From: a virus
Strand: one strand, 5' to 3'
DNA length: 24,652 nucleotides
Virus record (IMG/VR): IMGVR_UViG_3300035179_000892
Span: 1 to 24,652 of that record
The notes under the pieces were generated by a model that did no database searches, was not told where the DNA came from, and worked only from the letters and a program-made list of their open reading frames with translations. Positions 2,365 to 24,652 of this stretch are shown here, piece by piece (position 1 is the first letter of the stretch; each line of letters opens with the position of its first letter). Made by a program: the position numbers and the translations under genes.

Positions 2365-4152
2365 TTGGACATTTCCAAAGGACAGGCCGCCGAGCCAGTC
2401 ATCAAACTCGACATAAGCGAGGAGAGATTGCCACCGCCTGGCCAGCATCCTTCTGGCAAACGCCGCCTCCGTGCATTGCTCGTCAAACTGATGCCCGACC
2501 ACGAAATCTACTGCGAGCCGTTCTGCGGTCTAGCAGGAGTATTCTTCGCGAAGCCGCGAAGCAAGAAGGAAATTCTCAACGATGTGAACCCTGAATACAT
2601 TGGGTTTCTCAAGTTTCTTCGTGATGCAAGCGATGCCGATTGGGAAAAGATCAAGGCTATGGAATGGAGGCCCTCCGAGAGACGATGGGAAGAGCTTCGC
2701 GTTTCCAAACCTGACAGCAACATCGGCCGAGTCTATCGCATCATGTACCTCATGCGCTATGGCTACCGTGGGAATACTGGGCCTGGCAACTACGCTCCGA
2801 GCCGCGCATCGAGTGGTTTCCCGCAACTTCTCTTTGATCGACGCCAAGCCTACAAAGAAAGGCTTCGAGATGTCGTGATTCTCAACAAAGACTTCGAGGG
2901 CGTCATGCGAGAATACGATTCAGCGAACACGCTCTTCTTTCTTGATCCGCCATACCTGCAAAGCCCAGGCATGAGAGAAGGCGGGCAACACTTTCCAGGA
3001 AGCTCACCCGAAGAAGCCGAAAAGATCTTCATACGATTAACCGCCCGACTCCACTCTGCAAAGGGAAAGTGGATCCTAACGCATTCTTGGAATACCAAAG
3101 CGCGAGACGCCCTAGAGAGGCTTGGACACCTCCGCACCGTCACGGTGACTGAACCAACTGCATATGAAGGAGAGCTTGGAAGCCGACGCGAGATGATTGC
3201 CGCCAACTTCAAGCTGCCCGAGCGGCTACGCATCGTCTATGTGAGCAAGGGCACCCCAGTTGCCACTCTGATCCTTGCGCCCCTTGAGGATTCGGGAAGC
3301 CAAGATCTGAGAAAGATTCCAGTCAAGGAGATCAATCCCTCTACGCTCCGACGCGAGGACGCCAAACAGGTTCTCAATCTGCATCTGCGGATGCATCAGC
3401 TCTGGGGCTTGCTTGACCAACACGATTCGCTGGACGGCACGACTCGCGAGGATATCGCGAACGCTCACTACTTCGTAGCCCAGGAGCTTGCACGCAGAGA
3501 CTTTCGTCATTTCATGCACGACTTTCTTGACGACACCCTCCAGGAGGCCCCACTCGGCAAAACGATGCAGAAGATCTACGTCGAACGAGCAAAGCCCGCC
3601 TGGCGCATCTTCGAACTCGAAGATCTCCAGGAGATCGACGCCTTCAAGCCTGAGAATGCTGAGCTCGTGCTCGAGGTCAAATGGGATGGCGAGAGGATCC
3701 AGAGCCAGAAGCATAACGGCCGCGTAGAGATCTGGAGCGACTACCCACGTCGCGTAGATCACCGCTTACCACATCAAGTCAAAGAGCTCGAAGCCATGAA
3801 GCTCGATAATTTCAGGCTTGACTCCGAGGCCGTGATGCTCGAACCAGAAAGCAAAGAGACGCTGCACCGAACCATGGTTACGGCCCTGCTCAACGGGAAA
3901 TTCGACCCGACCGAGCGGGCGAAGATTCTCCACCTAATCGTCTTCGACTGCCTCGAGTTCGACGGCAAGGATCTCCGCGATCAGCCTCTAACAGAACGGA
4001 TCAAATTCCTGAAGGAATTCACTGGAACCGACCATATCCATCTCCTCACCGATTATCTCTCCGAGGATCCTGGCAAGGACGCTCTCGCCTATCTGATACC
4101 GCGCAGCCACAAACGGTTCGAGGCTACGATCGACAAGCTGATGGAAAAGTAG
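2365..4152 (+). CDS. D12-class adenine-N6 DNA methyltransferase fused to ATP-dependent DNA ligase (N-terminal part, ends at in-frame TAG)
   Basis: 595 residues from TTG 2365. Residues about 25-300 form a D12-class (Dam/DpnII type) N6-adenine methyltransferase: EPFCGLAGVFF at 51-61 is the SAM-binding motif and DPPY at 194-197 the catalytic motif. After a linker at about 300-420 comes the nucleotidyltransferase core of an ATP-dependent DNA ligase: KWDGER at 439-444 (motif I, K439 the AMP-accepting lysine), RLDSEAVM near 485 (motif III) and LIVFDCLEFDG near 525-535 (motif IIIa). Motifs IV and V are absent here but occur in the same frame straight after the TAG at 4150. The gene lies between a winged-helix-like gene and the prohead protease. 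Whether the TAG is read through, the ligase acts as two chains, or this is a decaying gene cannot be settled from sequence. Confidence 0.8.
   Translation: MDISKGQAAEPVIKLDISEERLPPPGQHPSGKRRLRALLVKLMPDHEIYCEPFCGLAGVFFAKPRSKKEILNDVNPEYIGFLKFLRDASDADWEKIKAMEWRPSERRWEELRVSKPDSNIGRVYRIMYLMRYGYRGNTGPGNYAPSRASSGFPQLLFDRRQAYKERLRDVVILNKDFEGVMREYDSANTLFFLDPPYLQSPGMREGGQHFPGSSPEEAEKIFIRLTARLHSAKGKWILTHSWNTKARDALERLGHLRTVTVTEPTAYEGELGSRREMIAANFKLPERLRIVYVSKGTPVATLILAPLEDSGSQDLRKIPVKEINPSTLRREDAKQVLNLHLRMHQLWGLLDQHDSLDGTTREDIANAHYFVAQELARRDFRHFMHDFLDDTLQEAPLGKTMQKIYVERAKPAWRIFELEDLQEIDAFKPENAELVLEVKWDGERIQSQKHNGRVEIWSDYPRRVDHRLPHQVKELEAMKLDNFRLDSEAVMLEPESKETLHRTMVTALLNGKFDPTERAKILHLIVFDCLEFDGKDLRDQPLTERIKFLKEFTGTDHIHLLTDYLSEDPGKDALAYLIPRSHKRFEATIDKLMEK
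4150..4152 (+). other. In-frame amber codon inside the ligase core
   Basis: The TAG follows ...DKLMEK, and the same frame continues ATSSLPVNLLEFKKLSEGV into ligase motif IV without any other stop until 6343. Start codons after it are poor: the first is TTG 4165, with no convincing ribosome binding site. TAG also ends about ten other + strand genes in the window, so it is a normal stop here and is not generally reassigned. Confidence 0.75.
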
Positions 4153-4164
4153 GCCACTTCTTCG

Positions 4165-6345
4165 TTGCCCGTCAACCTGCTCGAATTCAAGAAGCTCTCA
4201 GAGGGCGTCATGATAAAGCGAGCGGATAGCGTCTACGAGGCGCCTCAAAACAAAGCCTGGGCCAAGCTTAAACGCGAATACGAAATCGACGGCATCATCC
4301 TGCAACGGAACCAGACGAAGGTTCCGACGGTCTTCAACTACGATCTCGGCATCGGCCCGATCGCGGCCGAATATGCGAAAGCGATCGGCGAGAAAGCTTG
4401 CAAGCACGACGACCGATGGTATATGTTCATCGGCACAAGTGATGCCACGACATTCAAGCTGAACGCAGGAGAGATCCTTCGAGTCGCAGCGGAAGAGATC
4501 ATACTCCACGAAACTGAGGATCCCGAGTTTCCATACTACACGGGCTATGTGATGCGGGTCCGCGAGCCCGTCCCCGAGAAGAGCCGACCAGACCCTGTCC
4601 TGGTGATGCAGCGTCTAGCGGCTTTGGAACCGCGCAGGCTTCCGCAAGTCAGGAAACAACTTGAGACGCTTGAGTTCCCAGAGTTCGTCTGGATTCCAGG
4701 ATTCATCTCAATCGCGGGCAGCCTCATCTACCACGCAGAAGGTTACACAGACCGCGAGCCGAACGATATCGACATAATCGCTCGCTGTGAACGAGATCCA
4801 CAAGGCAGATTCATTCTGCGGCTAGATCCTGCGCTGCGATTGAAGCTCGATCGTATCCTGGAACGAAATTTCGGCGGGAAGGAAACCCAGTACTCCTCAA
4901 GTCCGTACGGGCCGAATTGGGACTACGCCCCAATCTACGATCTGGTCCTGCGCCCACACAAGCCGCTCAAGGTCGAGGAGCTCGAGGAAGACGAATTCAA
5001 GGAGCTCTTCTACAAGCAGGCCGAGGGGCGCCTCGAGAAGCAAGCGGATCCCTACATGGAATATCTGCCCGAGGACAAACGACACGACTACATGATGCAT
5101 GCCCACTACCGCGGAAAAGGCGCGCATCTCGATCTACGCTTCCAGGGACCCGAGAAGAAGTACTTGATCGGATGGACCATTTCAGCCCAGAATCCAGGAG
5201 TCATCAGAGAATCCGTTGAGACTCTGACAGACGCAAAGAAATGGTTCGCGAACTCCGACGCCTGGAAGATTGACTTCGAGAAGGGACGCGTTAAACTCCG
5301 CCGAGTCCGCGGAGGCCAAGTCAGGCCCGCTCAATTATACGCTTCCAGGAAGGCGAAGGAACCGCTTCCCTGGATGAAGTTCGAGGGCCGAGTCGAGCCT
5401 GGCCAGGTCGGCGCAACTCGATACGAGTACGGAGTATTCCTCATCGTCGAGGATGGCACAATTCAGACTGGAGCGCAGAAACCCTACTTCCACGAATACT
5501 TCCTGAACGGCAAGATCTTCAAGAGCCGAATCGCCTTCCGTCTCCTGGGGCGCCTCGAGAAGCAGGCTCGCGACATCCTGCCCGTCGGCGTTGAGGCTGA
5601 GGACTTCCGAGATCCATACTTCTGGAGCCTCATTCAACCCGTGGACCAAAGGCCCTACGTGCTGAGCCGTGAGGCCGTCGAGAAGAAATGGATGCCGCCA
5701 GACGGATTCTCAGCGCTCCCAGAAGAAGTTCGCTCTCAGCTCCCTCTCCAGTTCAGATATTGGAATGAGAAGGGCGAAAGCGCAAGGACGGCCCGAGATC
5801 TCCTTGTCGACGCCATTCAGGAAGGCCGCTTGAAGATCGACTTCGACGCCGTACTGCATGGACAGAGAATCGAGAAAGCCGCTTATCCCTACGTAATCCA
5901 GTGGCATTACTGGAAGAAGCAGAAAGTCGTCCGCGAGGGCCCGTCGACGCAACATTGGGATCTCCGCATCGACTTCGGCAAGCTACCGCTCTTCCATCTG
6001 GTCCTCGAGAGAAACCCGCTCGAGGAGAGTGAGGTCTCAGGCTACGAGAAACCATCCGAGGGCCGCGATGTTATGGAACGCGGCAGGAAGGGTCCTGAAT
6101 ACTTGGAACCGAGCGGGGATGCCAAGCCAAGCGAAGCAGGCTTCAATCCTTGGAATCCGACCAAAGAGACGCCCGCTTGGGTCGAGATGATTGATCACGG
6201 CGACGTCGAAGTCCTCGAACACACGCCGAATCTCATCCGCGTCCAATTCAAAAGCGGCCAGATGAAAGGAACTTGGCTGCTCGGACGCGAAGAACCAGGA
6301 TCGAAGTTCTGGCACATGCGTCGAACCCGCGAAGGACCAGGATAG
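4165..6345 (+). CDS. Ligase C-terminal part + nucleotidyltransferase-like segment + two LigD 3'-phosphoesterase-like domains
   Basis: 726 residues if started at TTG 4165, but in the same frame as the upstream methyltransferase-ligase; read through, the pair would span about 1,326 residues. Residues 13-19 (EGVMIKR) and 31-37 (AWAKLKR) are ligase motifs IV and V; an OB-fold-like stretch follows to about 135. Near 180-210, IAGSLIYHAEG followed by PNDIDIIA resembles the GS...DxD motif of minimal nucleotidyltransferases. At about 295-465 is a LigD-type 3'-phosphoesterase (PE) domain: HAHYRGKGAHLDLRF carries the H...HxDxR signature and WMKFEGRVEPG follows. A second PE-like domain at 575-726 has QWHYW...QHWDLRIDF. 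PE domains trim 3' phosphate or ribonucleotide ends before ligation. The next gene has its own GGAG at 6346-6349, so TAG 6343 is a true stop. Confidence 0.75.
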   Translation: MPVNLLEFKKLSEGVMIKRADSVYEAPQNKAWAKLKREYEIDGIILQRNQTKVPTVFNYDLGIGPIAAEYAKAIGEKACKHDDRWYMFIGTSDATTFKLNAGEILRVAAEEIILHETEDPEFPYYTGYVMRVREPVPEKSRPDPVLVMQRLAALEPRRLPQVRKQLETLEFPEFVWIPGFISIAGSLIYHAEGYTDREPNDIDIIARCERDPQGRFILRLDPALRLKLDRILERNFGGKETQYSSSPYGPNWDYAPIYDLVLRPHKPLKVEELEEDEFKELFYKQAEGRLEKQADPYMEYLPEDKRHDYMMHAHYRGKGAHLDLRFQGPEKKYLIGWTISAQNPGVIRESVETLTDAKKWFANSDAWKIDFEKGRVKLRRVRGGQVRPAQLYASRKAKEPLPWMKFEGRVEPGQVGATRYEYGVFLIVEDGTIQTGAQKPYFHEYFLNGKIFKSRIAFRLLGRLEKQARDILPVGVEAEDFRDPYFWSLIQPVDQRPYVLSREAVEKKWMPPDGFSALPEEVRSQLPLQFRYWNEKGESARTARDLLVDAIQEGRLKIDFDAVLHGQRIEKAAYPYVIQWHYWKKQKVVREGPSTQHWDLRIDFGKLPLFHLVLERNPLEESEVSGYEKPSEGRDVMERGRKGPEYLEPSGDAKPSEAGFNPWNPTKETPAWVEMIDHGDVEVLEHTPNLIRVQFKSGQMKGTWLLGREEPGSKFWHMRRTREGPG

Positions 6346-6354
6346 GAGATCGCG

Positions 6355-7827
6355 ATGCCTAGACCCCAATTGCTCATGCAGACATGCGCCGTGGATCCAC
6401 GGGAATGCGAGGTCTGCGGCGGCAACCCATTCAAATGCCGACTCTCACTCGAGATAATCGAGCGGAACATTCCGTATCGTCTAGTCAAGTTCACGCTGCC
6501 CGCTCAGGCCCAGATTATCCTCCAGGAGCCCGATCGGATCATCGCAGGCTACGCGAATATCGAGATCATAGACGCCCAGGGAGAGCTCATTCCTGCAGAA
6601 GCCTGGCATGAAGCATTCACCAAGTTCATGGCGAACCCGAAGTTTAGACTCGTCCACGTCTTCCATACCGATATCCCCATCGGCGAAGTCATCACAGGAT
6701 ACAAGGACTCGAAACATCGCATCTGGCGCTCCCATGTTGACGATCGCGGCCTCTTCGTCGTCGTTCGTCTACGCAAGGATCTCGTAGCCGCCGATCGCGT
6801 ATGGGACGCCATCCTGAAAGGCCAACTTCGCGCTTTCAGCATCAGCGGACTCGCCCTCGAGCGTCGTGTAGAATGCGCAGGCGGACGATGCTTCCGAGTC
6901 ATCCCACGACTAGAGCTCCACAGCATCACGGTCTGCGAGAAAGGAGCGAATCCAGGAGCACTCTTCGCGGTCGTGAAGAGCATCCCACTAGTAAGCCTTT
7001 TACGAATGCAAACGAAGCCCGCCCGACAGAAAATGTCTGAAGAGGAAATCCTGAACACACCCGAAGACCTCTCTATGCTAGAGAATGCAGGATCCGAAGG
7101 CAAGCCTTCGGAAACTCCTACTACACCGCAATCAAGCCAGCAAGCACCCGAGTCCAAAACTAGCGAGACTCAGAAGCAAGCGCAGCCGAGCGCTGATGCT
7201 GCGACGCCGCTCCTCCTCGAGATGAAAGCTCGCCTCGACCAGATCGCTGGCCAGATGGAGAAACTGGTCAGTGAGATGGAGAAGGCCCGCAAGCCCCAGG
7301 CGTATCCGTACCCTGGGAAGAAGAAGGCCAAGGAAGACGAGGAAGAAGAGGAAGAAGAGGAAGAAGAGAAGGCTGGAAAGAAGCCCGAGGAATACCCGTA
7401 CCCCGAGGAGAAGGCTCCCAAGGGGAAGGACAAGGAAGAGCCCGAAGAGAAGGCTGGAAAGAAGCCCGAGGAATACCCGTACCCCGAGGAGAAGGCTCCC
7501 AAGGGGAAGGACAAGGAAGAGCCCGAAGAGAAGGCTGGAAAGAAGCCAAAGTATCCTGCGCCACCGACGCGGAAAGGCGAGGTCCTAGCCATCAGTGGGG
7601 AAGACCTCGCGAAGATGATCGAGGAGAAGGCCTCCGAGATCGCTGAGAAGAAAGTCACCGAGATCCTCCAGAAGTCTCTTGGCAAGACTGAGAAGCGCGG
7701 CCAAGTCCCTGATATCGGCGGACCGTCGCCCGTCAGTGGGCCTCAAGCCCTTCTGAAGACGCCGCTCGCGAAACTCGGGACCATGCCGAGGCAAGAGTTC
7801 TGGAGCCAATTGCGAGGAGGACAGTGA
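6355..7827 (+). CDS. XkdF-like prohead serine protease fused to a repetitive scaffold-like tail
   Basis: 490 residues from ATG 6355 with a good ribosome binding site (AGGAG, 6345-6349). Residues about 55-220 match the prohead protease group: GYANIEIIDAQGELIP, RLVHVFHTDIPIGEVI with the catalytic-type His, LRAFSISG with the serine, and LHSITVCEKGANPGA at the end. Such proteases cut scaffold and capsid precursors during head maturation. Residues 230-480 are low complexity, Lys/Glu/Pro-rich and coiled-coil prone, including two 27-residue repeats (EKAGKKPEEYPYPEEKAPKG...). A charged helical domain after a protease, just before the capsid gene, is what a fused scaffold looks like. The cysteine-rich N-terminus (CEVCGGNPFKC) could bind zinc. 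Confidence 0.8.
   Translation: MPRPQLLMQTCAVDPRECEVCGGNPFKCRLSLEIIERNIPYRLVKFTLPAQAQIILQEPDRIIAGYANIEIIDAQGELIPAEAWHEAFTKFMANPKFRLVHVFHTDIPIGEVITGYKDSKHRIWRSHVDDRGLFVVVRLRKDLVAADRVWDAILKGQLRAFSISGLALERRVECAGGRCFRVIPRLELHSITVCEKGANPGALFAVVKSIPLVSLLRMQTKPARQKMSEEEILNTPEDLSMLENAGSEGKPSETPTTPQSSQQAPESKTSETQKQAQPSADAATPLLLEMKARLDQIAGQMEKLVSEMEKARKPQAYPYPGKKKAKEDEEEEEEEEEEKAGKKPEEYPYPEEKAPKGKDKEEPEEKAGKKPEEYPYPEEKAPKGKDKEEPEEKAGKKPKYPAPPTRKGEVLAISGEDLAKMIEEKASEIAEKKVTEILQKSLGKTEKRGQVPDIGGPSPVSGPQALLKTPLAKLGTMPRQEFWSQLRGGQ
7366..7547 (+). repeat. 81-bp tandem coding repeat in the scaffold-like region
   Basis: Two identical 81-base units (7366-7446 and 7447-7527) are followed by a 20-base third start (7528-7547). 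They are in frame and encode 27-residue units rich in Glu, Lys and Pro. Identity at DNA level, third codon positions included, points to recent duplication by slippage or unequal crossover. Before them is a GAAGAG-type run (about 7338-7368) coding for poly-Glu. Confidence 0.9.
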
Positions 7828-7833
7828 TCCGAG

Positions 7834-8979
7834 TTGTCTAGTCTAATGGATCCGCAAGTGGAACGCCTATTCCGCACGATGGAGACCCTTGAGAAACACT
7901 ACTATGAGGGAGCTGGACGCTTCGAAGGCCCCTTCAACCTATTCGGCGCAGATCTCCTGCTCAAGCAGGCTCCGCATCTGACAACGACTGCGGGCCTCTG
8001 GCAGGCGATCCTCGGTCGAAGAGTTTGGGGACAACTCAACTACGAGCCCAACGCCTTCGCCATACTTCCGAAGAAGCCATGGGATCGCTCGGGATGGCGT
8101 GTCAAGACAGTTAAGGGCGCAATCACTGGAGGCGGCATCGCTGAAGACGGTACTCTGCCAACGACTATCAAGGCGACCTATTCGACAGTTGCGACGAAGC
8201 CGAAAATCCACACGAACACATGGCAAGCAAGCGAGCTGCTCGCTCTACTCTCCGAAGTAGACGATGCAGTCGATATCCTCGCGGTGGGCCGAGAAGACTC
8301 AGGCCTAATTCACCGCGATCTTATGAACGTCGCCCTGCTCACCGAGTTCGGCACACTGCCAGGTAATACCATCGAGTCTATCGACCGAATGTGTGCAAGC
8401 ACCGCGGAGCGAACCGCCTGCGGTGAGACCGACGGAGACGAGGACCCATGGGGTACTGCTGTCTTGGACAGAAGCGCGAACGCCTGGGCCGACTCGAACG
8501 TCCTACACAACAGCAACGTAGATCGAGATCTATCGCTTGCTGTGATTGACCAGCTCTATCGAACAATCTACACAGCCGCGGGTGAAACTCCCAACGTCAT
8601 ATTGACAGGCTACGATACGCTGTTCTCGTGGGGCGCATTGCTCCAGAGCCAGCAACGCTATTTCGGCTCCATAACCGTCCAGCCGACATTCAATGGAGTC
8701 CGCGCTGCCACGCCAGGCGTCGACGGTGCCTTCAACGTGAGCAGCTACTTTGACACTCCAATAATCGTATCGAAGAACACGGCTGTCGATACGATCAGCC
8801 GAATCTACATGCTGAACACGGAGTACATGTTCCTCAAAGTCGCAAGGCCCTCGAGATACTTCGAGACAAGCGATCCCTTCGTCGTCAACCAGTTCGCAAC
8901 CAAAGGCGCCTACGAGACAGTCCTAGAACTGATCTGCACGTTCTTCAAGGCTCAGGGCAAGATCAGAGATCTCAAGTAG
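7834..8979 (+). CDS. Major capsid protein, HK97-fold type
   Basis: 381 residues from TTG 7834 (GGAGG at 7816-7820; ATG 7846 is the alternative). It directly follows the protease-scaffold gene, as capsid genes do. The sequence has a short helical N-terminus (QVERLFRTMETLEKHYYEG), then a capsid-like body with VWGQLNYEPNAFAILPKKPW, a TWQASELLALLSEV segment and a C-terminal part with YFDTPIIVSKNTAVD and MLNTEYMFLKVARPSRYFE. These resemble the P-domain and C-terminal strand of HK97-type capsids found in archaeal viruses. There is no 100-residue delta domain, which fits a scaffold supplied by the upstream gene. The call rests on position and overall pattern. Confidence 0.75.
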   Translation: MSSLMDPQVERLFRTMETLEKHYYEGAGRFEGPFNLFGADLLLKQAPHLTTTAGLWQAILGRRVWGQLNYEPNAFAILPKKPWDRSGWRVKTVKGAITGGGIAEDGTLPTTIKATYSTVATKPKIHTNTWQASELLALLSEVDDAVDILAVGREDSGLIHRDLMNVALLTEFGTLPGNTIESIDRMCASTAERTACGETDGDEDPWGTAVLDRSANAWADSNVLHNSNVDRDLSLAVIDQLYRTIYTAAGETPNVILTGYDTLFSWGALLQSQQRYFGSITVQPTFNGVRAATPGVDGAFNVSSYFDTPIIVSKNTAVDTISRIYMLNTEYMFLKVARPSRYFETSDPFVVNQFATKGAYETVLELICTFFKAQGKIRDLK

Positions 8980-10737: not shown

Positions 10738-10782
10738 CGAAAGGATTCACCAGTGCGTTACTGGTATGGGAGGCCTCAGAGA

Positions 10783-13701
10783 GTGACCAGGATGAAACTA
10801 ACCACGATCTCAACCATAGCCCTGATAGTCCTCGTTCTGCTCGCGTCGAGCTTCAGTGCTGCACAAGCCAGTCTGCCGACTCCGACCTCGAACAGCTTTC
10901 TGACCAACGCGGCCTCGACCGCGATTACGAATTTATGGGATGCAGGTAAAGGTGCCTTCAAGGCCTCGCCGTTCACGGAGCCTTACAACTATTGGATCGA
11001 CGATCAAGGCAAGATGCTGGATCTCCTAGCTGCCAGCCCTACACACTACTCATACGGAAGCCAGGCAGCCGACTTCATAGCAAGCCACACGACGACAGAC
11101 GGCAGTGTCATTCGGAGAACAATCATCCAGTATCCCACAATCACGAGCGCGAATCCTCTGAACTTCGCTATGGATAACCGAATGGTCGAAACCTACGGAG
11201 ACCTCTCGAAGGCGAAGGATCGCAGTTTCAAGATCCTCTATCTCCCGCAGGGTACTATGATGGCGTACCTTCAGGGTCATGTGGTCTGGGATGGAGTCGC
11301 AGATCGCGATCTGAGCTATGTCTATCCGCCGACGGGCTATTCGATGTCGTCAGGAACAAGCGGCGGCCTAGCCTACACCCGCGCAACTCAGATCTGGGAT
11401 CTCGCAAACTTCACCATGACGATTGACTACACATTCTGGGAGCATCGGCCATACCTGAACGTCTCTTACACGTTCTATGCGAAGATCAACTTGACCGACG
11501 TCAAAGTCGTGGTGCCGTTCGATCAACTTGACTGGCTTGGCAGCACGCTGTTCACAGGCGGCCCGCATCTTGGATATCAATGGATCTGGATACCAGGGTA
11601 TCCAGATCAGAAATCGGACGACACTTCGAACCAGCACTTTCTCCCGAATGTGAATCAATGGAACGCAACCTGGTACATGATTCACATGCACGATAAGCCA
11701 GACGGAGTCTCTTCAAGCCTCGCGATCGTGGCTGATTGGGGGGTCAACAAGACCGTTCTCGGCGCTATTGACAACGCGCTCACAGGATCTCCTCTGCCAC
11801 CGAATCGTCTCGCTCCGAATCTGCATTGGCTAAAGCAATACGCCTTCCTTCATCAGATGATCGCTGGGCAGACAAAGAAGTTCAGCTTGAAATACTACTT
11901 CCTCAACGCGCATGATTGGACGAATCTCTGGCCGACGTATCATGAGATCTTCGACGTCAGGCCTTCTCTCGCAGACCTAGATCTCAGCCAGAACTATCAG
12001 TATGGCGCACTTGTCTACGGCCTCGCTCGCATGTATCAGGCCACAGGCACGAGCAAGTACATCAACCAAGCCCTGAAGATCTGGGCGAACTGGGATCGCA
12101 TGTTTCAGAGCGCAGGATCCTGGCCTTACGTCAACGGCACCTATCTTCAATCGCTTCCCTTCATGTTACGCGGTGAGCTTCTGCTCTATTCTATGACGAG
12201 CGATCCAGCGCTTCAAGCCCAACTGAATGTAGCCATCATTCGAGCTTTGAACAAGCTCCTAGAGACCCAGCAACTCGATATCGCGAAGCCGAACTATGGC
12301 GGCTTCCAGGAATGGCGATTCTACAATTTCACTTCGGGCGTTCAATATTGGGGGAACAGCTATGAGGATTTCACAGCGCCCGCGATGACAGCTCTCTGTG
12401 ACTACTATAACGCTCGCGGGAATTCAACCGTCCTGGATCGAATCACGAAAGCAACAAGCCCGTGGACTGTCTCTGACGGAACTTCGAGCTATCAATACGT
12501 GATCTGGGATCCTATCACACAGACAGAGATCTATCGAACTATCCCAGCAGGCCACATCGTTCATGCACAAAACACGACGGCTGGAATCTATGATTGGGCT
12601 TGGCCCGCATACAAGTCAGCCCTGATCGCTCAAGCCTATTCGAGCACTCTAGACAATCTCGGGTATGACAAGCCCATCGCATTTCGAGCTATCTCTCAGC
12701 TCTGGTGGAAATCAACCTTCAACTCAACAAGGACAGCGATCTACGTTGATGCGGCCAAGTATGAAACGAACTCGGAGACGCAGCCCTGGGGAGCGCTTGG
12801 ATGGTCAGCTTGGATGAACGCTGCCACGGCGCTCACTGGGTCGGCGCAAATGACAATAGCCTCAATCCTTTCAACAGGCAAAGCCAACATGACAGCTCTC
12901 GCATGGACCCCGACGCCGAATTATGCAACGTACTCGATCACAATGCAACTGCCCGCTCTTGAATCATTGAAAGCCGCCGTCGCAAGCGCCAAAGAGATCA
13001 GCGGAGTCTACATGAGCGGAGCCAGCACGATAAGCTACACTTGGAGCGCAACCAGATCTGTCGCAGACATCTCATTCTCTGTTCCCACGGCGGGAACCTA
13101 CGTTCTCCAAGTGAGATACCCGATCACATTCTCGGTCGTAACAACGTATCCCTACGCTTGCATCTCATGGACAGGCTCAGGCGGCCAGAAAAACTTCACA
13201 GGCTATATGCTCGCGAACGAACGCATGGGCACTGTGAACGCGTCTCGGACAGGATTCTACCTGGGATTCAACTATCCAGAATGGTGGATCTTCGTCAACG
13301 ACACCGCAAGCGGATCAAATCAGATCTGCATGATCTACAATAAGAAAGTGGGCTGGATTCTCTCGAATAGTCCGATGCCCTCGAGCATCTACGGCGAACA
13401 AAGCCTGATGGGCAACTTCACGCTCAGCGGGCCCCTCCATGTGAAGGCCGATTCAGGCTTCTTCGCCTATGGACCTCGCATGGCGCAGCTCCAGGGACTG
13501 ACCGCACCCTACGGAAACGGGACCTGGTCGGCATACCGATATGACCTCGTCGTGGTCCCGATCTCAGGCTACACGTACGGCCAGATCTACATCATCTGGG
13601 AGCAGGCGGGGCCTGGCACGGCTACGATGATAGTTGTCGGAATCATCGCGGTCTCGGCCGCTGGTGTGATCTACGTAGCCAGGAAGAAGATCAAGAAATG
13701 A
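10783..13701 (+). CDS. Secreted, C-terminally membrane-anchored surface protein, six-hairpin glycosidase-like core
   Basis: About 972 residues from GTG 10783, which has GGGAGG at 10768-10773 with nine-base spacing; ATG 10792 is also possible. Residues 1-30 are a clear signal peptide (TTISTIALIVLVLLASSF, then AAQA). The C-terminus has one membrane helix (TMIVVGIIAVSAAGVIYVA) and RKKIKK. Many N-x-S/T sequons fit glycosylation. The middle (about 400-660) has helical repeats rich in Trp and Tyr (ALVYGLARMYQATGTSKYI, ALKIWANWDRMF), like (alpha/alpha)6 enzymes of the six-hairpin glycosidase group. Beta-rich parts lie before and after. It is out of place between head genes and the connector. It may act on, or be displayed at, the host envelope; no catalytic residues can be named. 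Confidence 0.6.
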   Translation: MTRMKLTTISTIALIVLVLLASSFSAAQASLPTPTSNSFLTNAASTAITNLWDAGKGAFKASPFTEPYNYWIDDQGKMLDLLAASPTHYSYGSQAADFIASHTTTDGSVIRRTIIQYPTITSANPLNFAMDNRMVETYGDLSKAKDRSFKILYLPQGTMMAYLQGHVVWDGVADRDLSYVYPPTGYSMSSGTSGGLAYTRATQIWDLANFTMTIDYTFWEHRPYLNVSYTFYAKINLTDVKVVVPFDQLDWLGSTLFTGGPHLGYQWIWIPGYPDQKSDDTSNQHFLPNVNQWNATWYMIHMHDKPDGVSSSLAIVADWGVNKTVLGAIDNALTGSPLPPNRLAPNLHWLKQYAFLHQMIAGQTKKFSLKYYFLNAHDWTNLWPTYHEIFDVRPSLADLDLSQNYQYGALVYGLARMYQATGTSKYINQALKIWANWDRMFQSAGSWPYVNGTYLQSLPFMLRGELLLYSMTSDPALQAQLNVAIIRALNKLLETQQLDIAKPNYGGFQEWRFYNFTSGVQYWGNSYEDFTAPAMTALCDYYNARGNSTVLDRITKATSPWTVSDGTSSYQYVIWDPITQTEIYRTIPAGHIVHAQNTTAGIYDWAWPAYKSALIAQAYSSTLDNLGYDKPIAFRAISQLWWKSTFNSTRTAIYVDAAKYETNSETQPWGALGWSAWMNAATALTGSAQMTIASILSTGKANMTALAWTPTPNYATYSITMQLPALESLKAAVASAKEISGVYMSGASTISYTWSATRSVADISFSVPTAGTYVLQVRYPITFSVVTTYPYACISWTGSGGQKNFTGYMLANERMGTVNASRTGFYLGFNYPEWWIFVNDTASGSNQICMIYNKKVGWILSNSPMPSSIYGEQSLMGNFTLSGPLHVKADSGFFAYGPRMAQLQGLTAPYGNGTWSAYRYDLVVVPISGYTYGQIYIIWEQAGPGTATMIVVGIIAVSAAGVIYVARKKIKK

Positions 13702-21290: not shown

Positions 21291-21443
21291 TCACGGGTAG
21301 ATGCCCCCGACCGAGCCTAGAAGCACCATCGCCCAGAGTAGCCACCAGAGAAAATAGAGAAGAGCGGCTGCCATGAGGCCGTATAGAATCCATCGCCATT
21401 TCACGCGCTCAACTCTCCATAGGTGCTTGCTCTCATGTCTCAT
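21291..21443 (-). CDS. Small single-helix membrane protein (copy B of the 3' cassette gene)
   Basis: 50 residues from ATG 21443, which overlaps the TGA of the upstream zinc-ribbon gene by ATGA; an internal GTG at 21404 would give exactly 37 residues, the size of the homologue at 23493. The core WRWILYGLMAAALLYFLWWL is a membrane helix continuing to WAMVLLGSVGGIYP. The homologue has the same LYGLM and LGSVG-x-x-YP landmarks. Conservation of the overlap and of the landmarks says the pair works together: a soluble zinc-ribbon protein and a membrane peptide made from one message. Confidence 0.65.
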   Translation of the reverse strand: MRHESKHLWRVERVKWRWILYGLMAAALLYFLWWLLWAMVLLGSVGGIYP

Positions 21444-21685
21444 TCACCCAAGGCTTTCCGCAGAGCATCCTTGAAAGATTCACTGTTGATCAGGCGCTTG
21501 ATAAAGTCTGGCTCCGCAAGGATCCTGTCGAGTCCTGCAAGCTGCTCATTCGGGAGAATCGCGCCACACTTGACGCAGTAGATCGCGATCGGAGCATTCT
21601 CTTGGCTGCATCTCGGGCAGCTCTGGGCTTCGGTTGGAGATCCATTAGGTTCAGAAACGCTTAAGGAAAAGGCTCCATACCCCAT
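21440..21685 (-). CDS. Stand-alone zinc-ribbon protein, paralogue of the integrase C-terminus
   Basis: 81 residues from ATG 21685. Residues 23-40 are a zinc ribbon (CPRC...CVKC). From SQENAPIAIYCVKCGA to the end it matches integrase residues about 295-349 nearly throughout (QENAPIALYCVGCGA; PKFIQSLINSESFKEALRKA against PDFIKRLINSESFKDALRKA). The first 20 residues are unrelated to the recombinase. The recombinase catalytic domain is absent, so this cannot recombine DNA. It could act as a regulator or decoy for a partner bound by the shared tail. The start lies only 18 bases from the divergent + gene at 21704. Confidence 0.75.
   Translation of the reverse strand: MGYGAFSLSVSEPNGSPTEAQSCPRCSQENAPIAIYCVKCGAILPNEQLAGLDRILAEPDFIKRLINSESFKDALRKALGE
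21660..21665. promoter_or_regulatory. CTTAAG TATA-like element for the gene at 21704
   Basis: CTTAAG is preceded on the + strand by AGAAACG, a possible BRE, 38 bases before TTG 21704. A start point near 21687-21692 would leave a short leader. Because it lies inside the - strand zinc-ribbon ORF, it is only a candidate. Confidence 0.25.
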
Positions 21686-23492: not shown

Positions 23493-23606
23493 TCATGGAT
23501 AGAGGCTGCCGACCGATCCTAGAACTACCATCCCCACGAAGATAAAGGCCAGCACAGCCAGCACCATCAGGCCGTATAGAACCCATCCCCATTTCAGTTT
23601 TCTCAC
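23493..23606 (-). CDS. Small single-helix membrane protein (copy A), coupled to the integrase
   Basis: 37 residues from GTG 23606, overlapping the integrase TGA as GTGA. Sequence landmarks are KLKWGWVLYGLM, a helix continuing through VLAVLAFIFVGMVV and the ending LGSVGSLYP. It matches the homologue at 21291 in length from its internal GTG and in the landmarks LYGLM and LGSVG. It is too short for standard gene calls. Coupling implies it is made together with the integrase, which is an unusual partner for a membrane peptide. Confidence 0.65.
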   Translation of the reverse strand: MRKLKWGWVLYGLMVLAVLAFIFVGMVVLGSVGSLYP

Positions 23607-24652
23607 TCTCCCAAGGCTTTCCGTAGAGCTTCCTTGAAAGATTCACTATTGATCAGGCTCTGAATAAACTTTGGATCCGAGAGGACTTTCGCCAAGTCGG
23701 CCATCTGCTCGCTCGCCAGCAGTGCGCCGCATCCGACGCAGTAGAGTGCGATCGGAGCGTTCTCTTGGCCGCAGACGCATTTGACGACCTGACTGATCGG
23801 CCGTAGAATCTCGTCCTTTCTCTTCAAGCCGTGCAGTACCAAATCTTTCTCTTCGACGTCCTGCATGGTTAGGTGCGTATAGACGCCCACCATGTCGGGC
23901 CGTTTCCATCCGAAGAGTTTCATCATCTCGCGATCTGTGAAGTATCTGCAGTCTTCGGTCGCCCTGGTGTGCCTGAACATCTTCGGATAGATCTTCTTGC
24001 TGAGAATCTGTTCGCCAAGATCCCTGACATGGCGATAGAGCGTCTGCCCCTTGAACGGGCTACCCCTCGAGGTTAGGAATAGGCGGACGTCGGGATCCTT
24101 CCTCTCTGGATGATTGTTGATCTGTTCGCGTAGGTCTGGAACGCAGCCGTAGATTCGGCGTCGGCGAGTTCCAGTCTTGCCTGTCAGCCAGATGATCGCA
24201 CCGTACTGGTCGAATTGGACGTCTCTTATTCGGAGGAGGGCGATCTCGCTTCGCCGCCCGCCCAATTCGTCCAACAGTTCAACGATGAGTCTATCCTGCA
24301 GCGTCGGGGCTTCGTTGATGAGCCGCTCGATTTCCTGGCGCTCGAGGACCTGGCCCTGTATCCCTGTGCCCAGGTCTGGTTGCTTCGGGAACGGGACCTC
24401 CTCCGCTAGGTCCTTTCGGCCAACGAACTTCAGGGACATCTTGACGACGACGACGTGCAGGGTATAGTAGGCGAGACTGGATCTCTCTCGAACGCGATCC
24501 AGCATAGCCATGAGCTCGGGCTTGGTGCAGGCTTCGAGATTCAGATGCTCATGATTGACGATCCTTTTGAGAATGCAGGTGTAGCGGTCGATAGTGGTCG
24601 AGGTGACGCCTCGCCGTCCCGCATCCTGGAGGAAACCCTGAACCCAGCTCAT
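23603..24652 (-). CDS. Tyrosine recombinase (integrase) with C-terminal zinc ribbon
   Basis: 349 residues when started at the ATG 24652 on the window edge; the true start could be upstream. Residues 1-95 are a SAM-like core-binding domain (TIDRYTCILKRIVNHEHLNL, AYYTLHVVVVKMSLKFV). The catalytic domain shows GGRRSEI (R133), a lysine in TGKTGTRRRR (K159), KMFRHT (R227), FGWKRPD (W249) and the nucleophile Y258 in GVYTHL. The usual H of HxxR appears as K224. Residues 292-308 form a zinc ribbon (CVC...CVGC), and the C-terminus ends INSESFKEALRKALGE. It integrates or excises the viral genome at a host attachment site. No attachment site was identified. Confidence 0.85.
   Translation of the reverse strand: MSWVQGFLQDAGRRGVTSTTIDRYTCILKRIVNHEHLNLEACTKPELMAMLDRVRERSSLAYYTLHVVVVKMSLKFVGRKDLAEEVPFPKQPDLGTGIQGQVLERQEIERLINEAPTLQDRLIVELLDELGGRRSEIALLRIRDVQFDQYGAIIWLTGKTGTRRRRIYGCVPDLREQINNHPERKDPDVRLFLTSRGSPFKGQTLYRHVRDLGEQILSKKIYPKMFRHTRATEDCRYFTDREMMKLFGWKRPDMVGVYTHLTMQDVEEKDLVLHGLKRKDEILRPISQVVKCVCGQENAPIALYCVGCGALLASEQMADLAKVLSDPKFIQSLINSESFKEALRKALGE

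Follow-up and report, generated by a model that had tools for sequence, protein, structure and literature searches.

The 24,652-nucleotide stretch of DNA analysed here (hereafter the window) is the record of an uncultured tailed virus, IMGVR_UViG_3300035179_000892, and our subject is the block at positions 2365–6345. This block consists of two open reading frames (ORFs) that together encode an adenine methyltransferase, an ATP-dependent ligase divided between the two chains, a probable nucleotidyltransferase (NTase) and two domains with the fold of the 3'-phosphoesterase (PE) of LigD. Scans for similar blocks yielded 27 non-redundant relatives, found in IMG/VR contigs, the ANMV-1 virus and one Planctomycetota metagenome-assembled genome (MAG), which makes 28 loci with the window. 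Features of the block are listed below, with the evidence in brackets (HMM, hidden Markov model).

2365–4152, + strand: ORF1, 595 aa, TTG start and TAG stop; methyltransferase, helical module and N-terminal half of the ligase (ORF listing, Pfam)
2455–3120, + strand: D12-class N6-adenine methyltransferase domain (PF02086, 5.2e-19 / 3.1e-16)
3319–3564, + strand: HELX, a small helical module (iterated HMM; in 21/28 loci)
3646–4149, + strand: first half of the ligase adenylation domain, with the motif I lysine (KWDGER) codon at 3679–3681 (PF01068, 2.5e-20)
4150–4152, + strand: TAG stop that cuts the ligase between motifs IIIa and IV (sequence, contig comparison)
4165–6345, + strand: ORF2, 726 aa, TTG start; C-terminal half of the ligase, NTase, PE1 and PE2 (ORF listing, HMMs)
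4165–4602, + strand: second half of the ligase, with motif IV (EGVMIK) at 4201–4218, the motif V lysine at 4264–4266 and an OB-like region (alignment, joined model)
4636–4977, + strand: NTase-like domain, GS-x13-DID ... YDL (alignment, profile against solved structures)
5023–5583, + strand: PE1, LigD 3'-phosphoesterase-like, with metal triad codons H 5104, H 5125 and D 5131 (profile, Foldseek)
5620–5808, + strand: MID, a conserved linker region between PE1 and PE2 (HMM, 28 loci)
5854–6342, + strand: PE2, second LigD-PE-like domain, with H 5905, H 5953 and D 5959 retained (profile against the PDB)

The initial annotation of this DNA recognised an ATP-dependent ligase, and the Pfam match in ORF1, together with motifs IV and V, with which ORF2 begins, bears this out. 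It also placed the whole block in one reading frame, which is incorrect, as the TAG divides the block within the ligase and spreads motifs I, III, IV and V over two chains. All eight catalytic positions checked (K, D, G and E, then E, G, K and K) are invariant over 19 aligned ligases; the window encodes the first four in ORF1 and the others in ORF2. Against NCBIfam, the ORF1 half has as its first match the LigD ligase model TIGR02779 (5.2e-18), level with PRK03180. When joined across the TAG, the predicted model of the ligase best matches archaeal DNA ligases (4eq5, E = 7.4e-17), and the Pfam and NCBIfam models that the window ligase matches are those of DNA rather than RNA ligases.

The gene split is real and both ligase halves are maintained. 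The identical TAG is present in the relative L004 and in L002, a nearly identical contig that comes from a different sample, which rules out a sequencing error at this site. On either side of the TAG the ratio of non-synonymous to synonymous substitutions (dN/dS) is 0.05–0.10, with a synonymous divergence of 0.3–0.7, and this purifying selection on both halves indicates that the split is genuine. The methyltransferase of L003 does not enter this comparison. Relatives with an intact ligase might suggest a gene in decay after a nonsense mutation, or a misassembly, but the conserved stop and the selection on both sides leave this explanation a negligible chance. Readthrough or recoding of the TAG, giving one 1,326-residue protein like those of unsplit relatives, would be consistent with ORF2 being in register with ORF1 and with the four codons between the TAG and the TTG, which are open in the window and in L004. 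However, in L003 several stops separate the ligase halves, along with a 45-codon out-of-frame ORF that runs at its end into the start of ORF2. In the window, TAG behaves as an ordinary stop that closes many of the other listed genes, and no tRNA genes were found. The L003 stops and the frequent TAG stops rule out pyrrolysine or other TAG recoding as a general mechanism, and make readthrough at this site highly improbable. The simplest reading is that the two ligase chains would pair, which would make the split ligase a natural case of an adenylation domain supplied as two chains. The aligned start of ORF2 in L003 is GTG. The 45-codon ORF of that contig (L003:3742–3885, MGEAEITLEV...ENGED) overlaps the ATG of ORF2 and may be a small gene or what is left of an inserted element.

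Downstream of the ligase, the two LigD-PE-like domains named by the initial annotation held up: profile and fold searches both return LigD PE structures first, well beyond chance, and the fold assignment is firm for both domains. Neither domain was detected by single-sequence Pfam scans of the window. Against the PDB, the PE1 profile matches 3p43 (7.6e-5) and 3p4h (1.3e-4), with only 5dmp, 3n9b and 2lj6 as further, weaker matches, while a joint profile of PE2 and PE3 (a third copy found in some relatives) matches 3p4h (7.4e-7) and 3p43 (9.9e-7). An AlphaFold2 model of the NTase-PE1-MID-PE2 region has a predicted local distance difference test score (pLDDT) near 90 across most of the PE domains, and the six PDB structures that Foldseek retrieved with the whole model at E ≤ 1e-3 are all LigD PE domains (3n9b, 1.1e-5; 3p43, 1.5e-5). 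The active site of LigD PE comprises His42, His48, Asp50, Arg52, His84 and Tyr88 (PMC8656161). In PE1, the H-H-D manganese triad is invariant (24/24), the Arg52 position is retained in 23/24, and the family has an invariant HE pair of its own. Catalysis by PE1 is likely. In PE2, the triad is retained in the window, L003, L004, L010, L012 and L018, and catalysis by the window copy is possible.

The GS...DxD segment of the initial annotation is likewise present as a nucleotidyltransferase-like motif. One glycine and both aspartates of DxD are invariant in the family alignment, and all 41 listed matches of the profile to solved structures are nucleotidyltransferases or Pol beta, at weak scores (best E = 0.0086). 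The domain is probably an NTase of the Pol-beta type. The D12 methyltransferase was correctly named as well: PF02086 scores above its cut-off, and both the EPFCG (FxG-type) and DPPY motifs are found. Compared with the window, L003 appears much more divergent in its methyltransferase half (L003:1897–2850) than in its ligase and PE parts, a sign of recombinational module exchange. HELX has the pattern LxxLHxxLHxx...NAHxxVxxELxRR, and a search of solved structures gave no convincing relative. Its identification as a pyrimidine-dimer glycosylase was rejected, as it depended on one weak Pfam match in one relative (E = 0.043) that the solved structures did not support.

Across the relatives, the ligase and PE domains form the stable part of the block. 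PE1 is present in 28/28 loci, PE2 is absent only from L011 and L031, and ligase and PE occur together in 25 of the 28 loci, with one of the three exceptions lying at a contig end. Among 50,697 phage records scanned for the ligase and PE combination, ANMV-1 was the sole carrier, and a scan of 84,980 species genomes gave a single match, the Planctomycetota MAG. The domain order varies. The NTase normally lies 5' of the ligase in the relatives, unlike in the window: ANMV-1 has NTase-ligase-PE-PE, L020 and L030 have NTase-D12 methyltransferase-ligase-PE-PE-XkdF, and L008 has C5 methyltransferase-ligase-PE-PE-XkdF. In one clade, an ORF with an MBL domain and the ligase is followed by an ORF with three PE domains, the two mostly overlapping by 6–45 bases. 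Judged against these relatives, the order in the window is a local rearrangement. A TBP gene in ANMV-1 and in the L032 record points to archaeal hosts for those two. MCM (PF00493, a model that matches bacteria too) scored weakly in two records, and PCNA was found in none of those searched.

Several relatives carry inteins within the block. In L016 and L027, inteins (Hint/LAGLIDADG) are inserted at motif V of the ligase and at the HxD or GW site of PE1, and one of those in L016 is at the PE1 metal motif. In L022 a further intein apparently sits directly before motif I of the ligase, and another lies inside the MBL-containing part of L026. Conserved active sites are places where inteins tend to be retained, so their positions at ligase and PE1 motifs are an argument that these domains function.

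The accessory domains of the relatives raise the question of whether the block encodes an injected polyvalent effector against host defence, methylating incoming DNA or processing RNA or nucleotide signals, in which the ligase and PE would repair RNA or DNA cut by host nucleases. MBL domains and a 2H phosphoesterase domain (within the block in L023, and in the upstream gene in L008) fit the polyvalent proteins of Iyer et al. 2017 (PMC5512222), and the ligases of some relatives additionally match RNA_ligase. However, the conserved core of the family is ligase and PE rather than methyltransferase, and the window ligase, both in model searches and as a joined structure, resembles DNA ligases. We consider such an effector unlikely.

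The genes around the block are virion genes. In the window, a portal fragment and a MuF-like gene precede ORF1 and ORF2, and genes for a head maturation protease and the major head protein follow them:

1–879, + strand: C-terminal part of the portal protein, its gene cut by the contig edge (PHROG portal, 3.2e-7; PF04860, 8.9e-7)
1096–1386, + strand: C-terminus of a MuF-like minor head protein (PHROG head morphogenesis, 0.001; PF04233, 0.0056)
6355–7827, + strand: head maturation protease with a low-complexity charged tail (PHROG, 2.5e-10; TIGR01543, 5.2e-6)
7834–8979, + strand: major head (capsid) protein (PHROG, 7.8e-40; NF033394, 5.1e-17)

The position between MuF and the prohead protease given by the initial annotation is correct. 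The protease itself, which it took for XkdF, is not matched by the XkdF Pfam model (PF14550) and instead matches HK97-type head maturation protease models. In the relatives, upstream neighbours match portal, minor head or terminase models and downstream neighbours match head protease or major head models. An XkdF protease (PF14550) is fused to the block itself in five loci (L008, L015, L020, L023 and L030).

Some other genes of the window and its relatives deserve mention. The tail of the head protease (window 7270–7650) is a charged tandem repeat, EEPEEKAGKKPEEYPYPEEKAPKGKDK, whose copy number differs between the window and L003 (490 and 463 aa). A 982-aa protein in the structural operon (10753–13701) has an apparent N-terminal signal, a C-terminal membrane segment and a weak GH127 glycosidase match (8.5e-6), and is perhaps a surface glycan enzyme. 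A small zinc-ribbon protein (21440–21685, − strand) is paralogous to the C-terminal zinc-ribbon tail of the integrase (23603–24652, − strand), the two having in common the pattern ..QENAPIA.YCV.CGA...LINSESFK.ALRKALGE. In ANMV-1, a gene annotated as hypothetical (L006:5868–9368) encodes a 1,166-aa cysteine-rich protein with a MuF-like motif at its end.

Taken together, we propose that the block belongs to a modular viral family of the polyvalent type, with an ATP-dependent ligase and LigD-like PE as its core, usually an NTase and often methyltransferases, that acts in LigD-like processing of DNA ends at the head. We assign this reading a probability of about 0.5. The block would be expressed together with the head proteins, and its product, which is fused to the protease in five relatives, would most likely enter the procapsid near the portal. 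The PE domains would clean 3' ends, the NTase add or fill in nucleotides, the ligase, in this virus supplied as two chains that need to pair, seal them, and the methyltransferase mark the DNA. They would act on viral DNA at its ends or at nicks, when packaging finishes or just after ejection, with circularisation or repair as the outcome. The head-gene location and the repeated fusion to a head protease lead us to favour incorporation into the procapsid, with action at packaging or on entry, at roughly even odds. The domain content, the genomic setting, the conserved catalytic residues, the gene split and the purifying selection on both halves are observed; the pairing of the ligase halves, the substrate, the presence in the virion and the timing are inferred. 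Of the machine for marking, trimming and joining DNA that the initial annotation envisaged, the list of parts stands and the fusion of relatives to the prohead protease makes its capsid role more likely. It is however encoded by two genes with a split ligase and in an order that is local, and its trimming step is not to be assumed, for the reasons given next.

A number of observations weigh against this proposal. At the PE1 position of LigD His84 the family has E or Q in 21/24, and at that of Tyr88 it has W in 24/24; two phosphate-contacting residues of the LigD site (PMC8656161) are replaced, and PE1 falls short of the full LigD active site in spite of its triad and Arg52. The metal ligands of PE2 are gone in L006, L008, L015, L020, L023, L030 and L032, and in the three-PE clade PE2 is degenerate, the triad being retained in PE3. 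This loss and the replacements in PE1 are why trimming activity cannot be taken for granted. They would also suit PE domains that are non-catalytic remnants binding DNA ends or head proteins, in a block that is mainly a portal-vertex or packaging scaffold. Such a role is very unlikely given the invariant PE1 triad, the near-invariant Arg52 equivalent, the invariant catalytic residues of the ligase and the L016 intein at the PE1 metal motif. The structure predictions called for at the outset agree with LigD PE and DNA ligase folds for these parts, whereas the NTase region is poorly modelled (pLDDT about 45), and the third NTase aspartate is missing in some relatives. Ku (PF02735) was found in none of 24 records searched, many of which are fragments or incomplete. 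Finally, a late operon position is by itself no proof of packaging. The enzymes may work solely in the infected cell, in late maturation or repair that seals nicks and gaps of concatemers before packaging, and never be in the virion. The domain set equals what end healing and sealing involve, no packaging signal is needed, and ATP-dependent ligases of other phages lie outside head modules (the neighbouring methyltransferase and ligase of Sinorhizobium phage StopSmel, and the ligase of a Rhizobium phage). For a plain repair enzyme, however, the recurrent location among portal, MuF, protease and capsid genes and the five head-protease fusions would be unexpected, and we regard an exclusively intracellular role as doubtful, if conceivable.

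The proposed family, with head-associated processing of DNA ends, resembles two known kinds of protein. LigD, of bacterial and archaeal non-homologous end joining, likewise joins a ligase to a 3'-phosphoesterase (POL, PE and LIG), and the viral block keeps its H-H-D triad and Arg52 position. Where LigD has an AEP polymerase domain, the viral block has a probable Pol-beta-type nucleotidyltransferase; no AEP-type domain matched the window in Pfam or NCBIfam scans. The viral family further differs in its two or three PE copies, the replacement of His84 and Tyr88, the lack of Ku in the records searched, the attached methyltransferases, the head protease attached in relatives and the setting in a viral head operon. 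LigD homologues without the full domain set do exist (PMC8656161). Polyvalent proteins (PMC5512222) resemble the block in carrying multiple unrelated enzyme domains per polypeptide, in their virion gene context and in their shuffled order, and the relatives of the window have methyltransferase and 2H phosphoesterase domains as they do. The family has at least two disparate enzymatic domains per polypeptide, in genes that lie among phage virion genes. It differs in its stable core of ligase and PE, and in that processing would fall to the serine protease of the head and not to a zincin-like peptidase. The main text of PMC5512222 does not mention LigD or XkdF, and mentions ligase three times. 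The closest described virus is ANMV-1, whose protein AJP62006 (KP703175) shares NTase, ligase, PE1 and PE2 with the window and lies between portal-like and MuF-like genes. Unlike the window, its gene is unsplit, starts with the NTase, lacks the methyltransferase and has a degenerate PE2. Its annotation, 'ATP-dependent DNA ligase', conceals most of the protein. While the kind is thus known twice, as LigD-like enzymes and as polyvalent proteins, we found no account of this combination in the open-licence literature searched, an absence that is weak evidence of novelty.

Viral end joining is known in phages that supply Ku themselves and rely on the LigD of the host. Mycobacteriophages Omega and Corndog do so, the proposed purpose being genome circularisation (PMC7719229, PMC3706429), and packaging of their Ku in the capsid has been suggested (PMC3706429). 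The block described here would be similar in its use of end joining by a virus and in the proposed circularisation after injection. In contrast to those phages, the virus itself encodes the LigD-like enzymes, and the records searched for Ku gave none. More tentatively, the block may be a virion-carried, Ku-free end-joining machine, that is, a LigD analogue built by the virus and matured by its capsid protease, which would heal, seal and mark genome ends at packaging or entry. A viral LigD-like set in the head operon, shuffled among many uncultured tailed viruses and in some of them joined to the capsid protease, would be a new way of handling the ends of linear genomes, and it extends the idea of polyvalent proteins to DNA-end repair.

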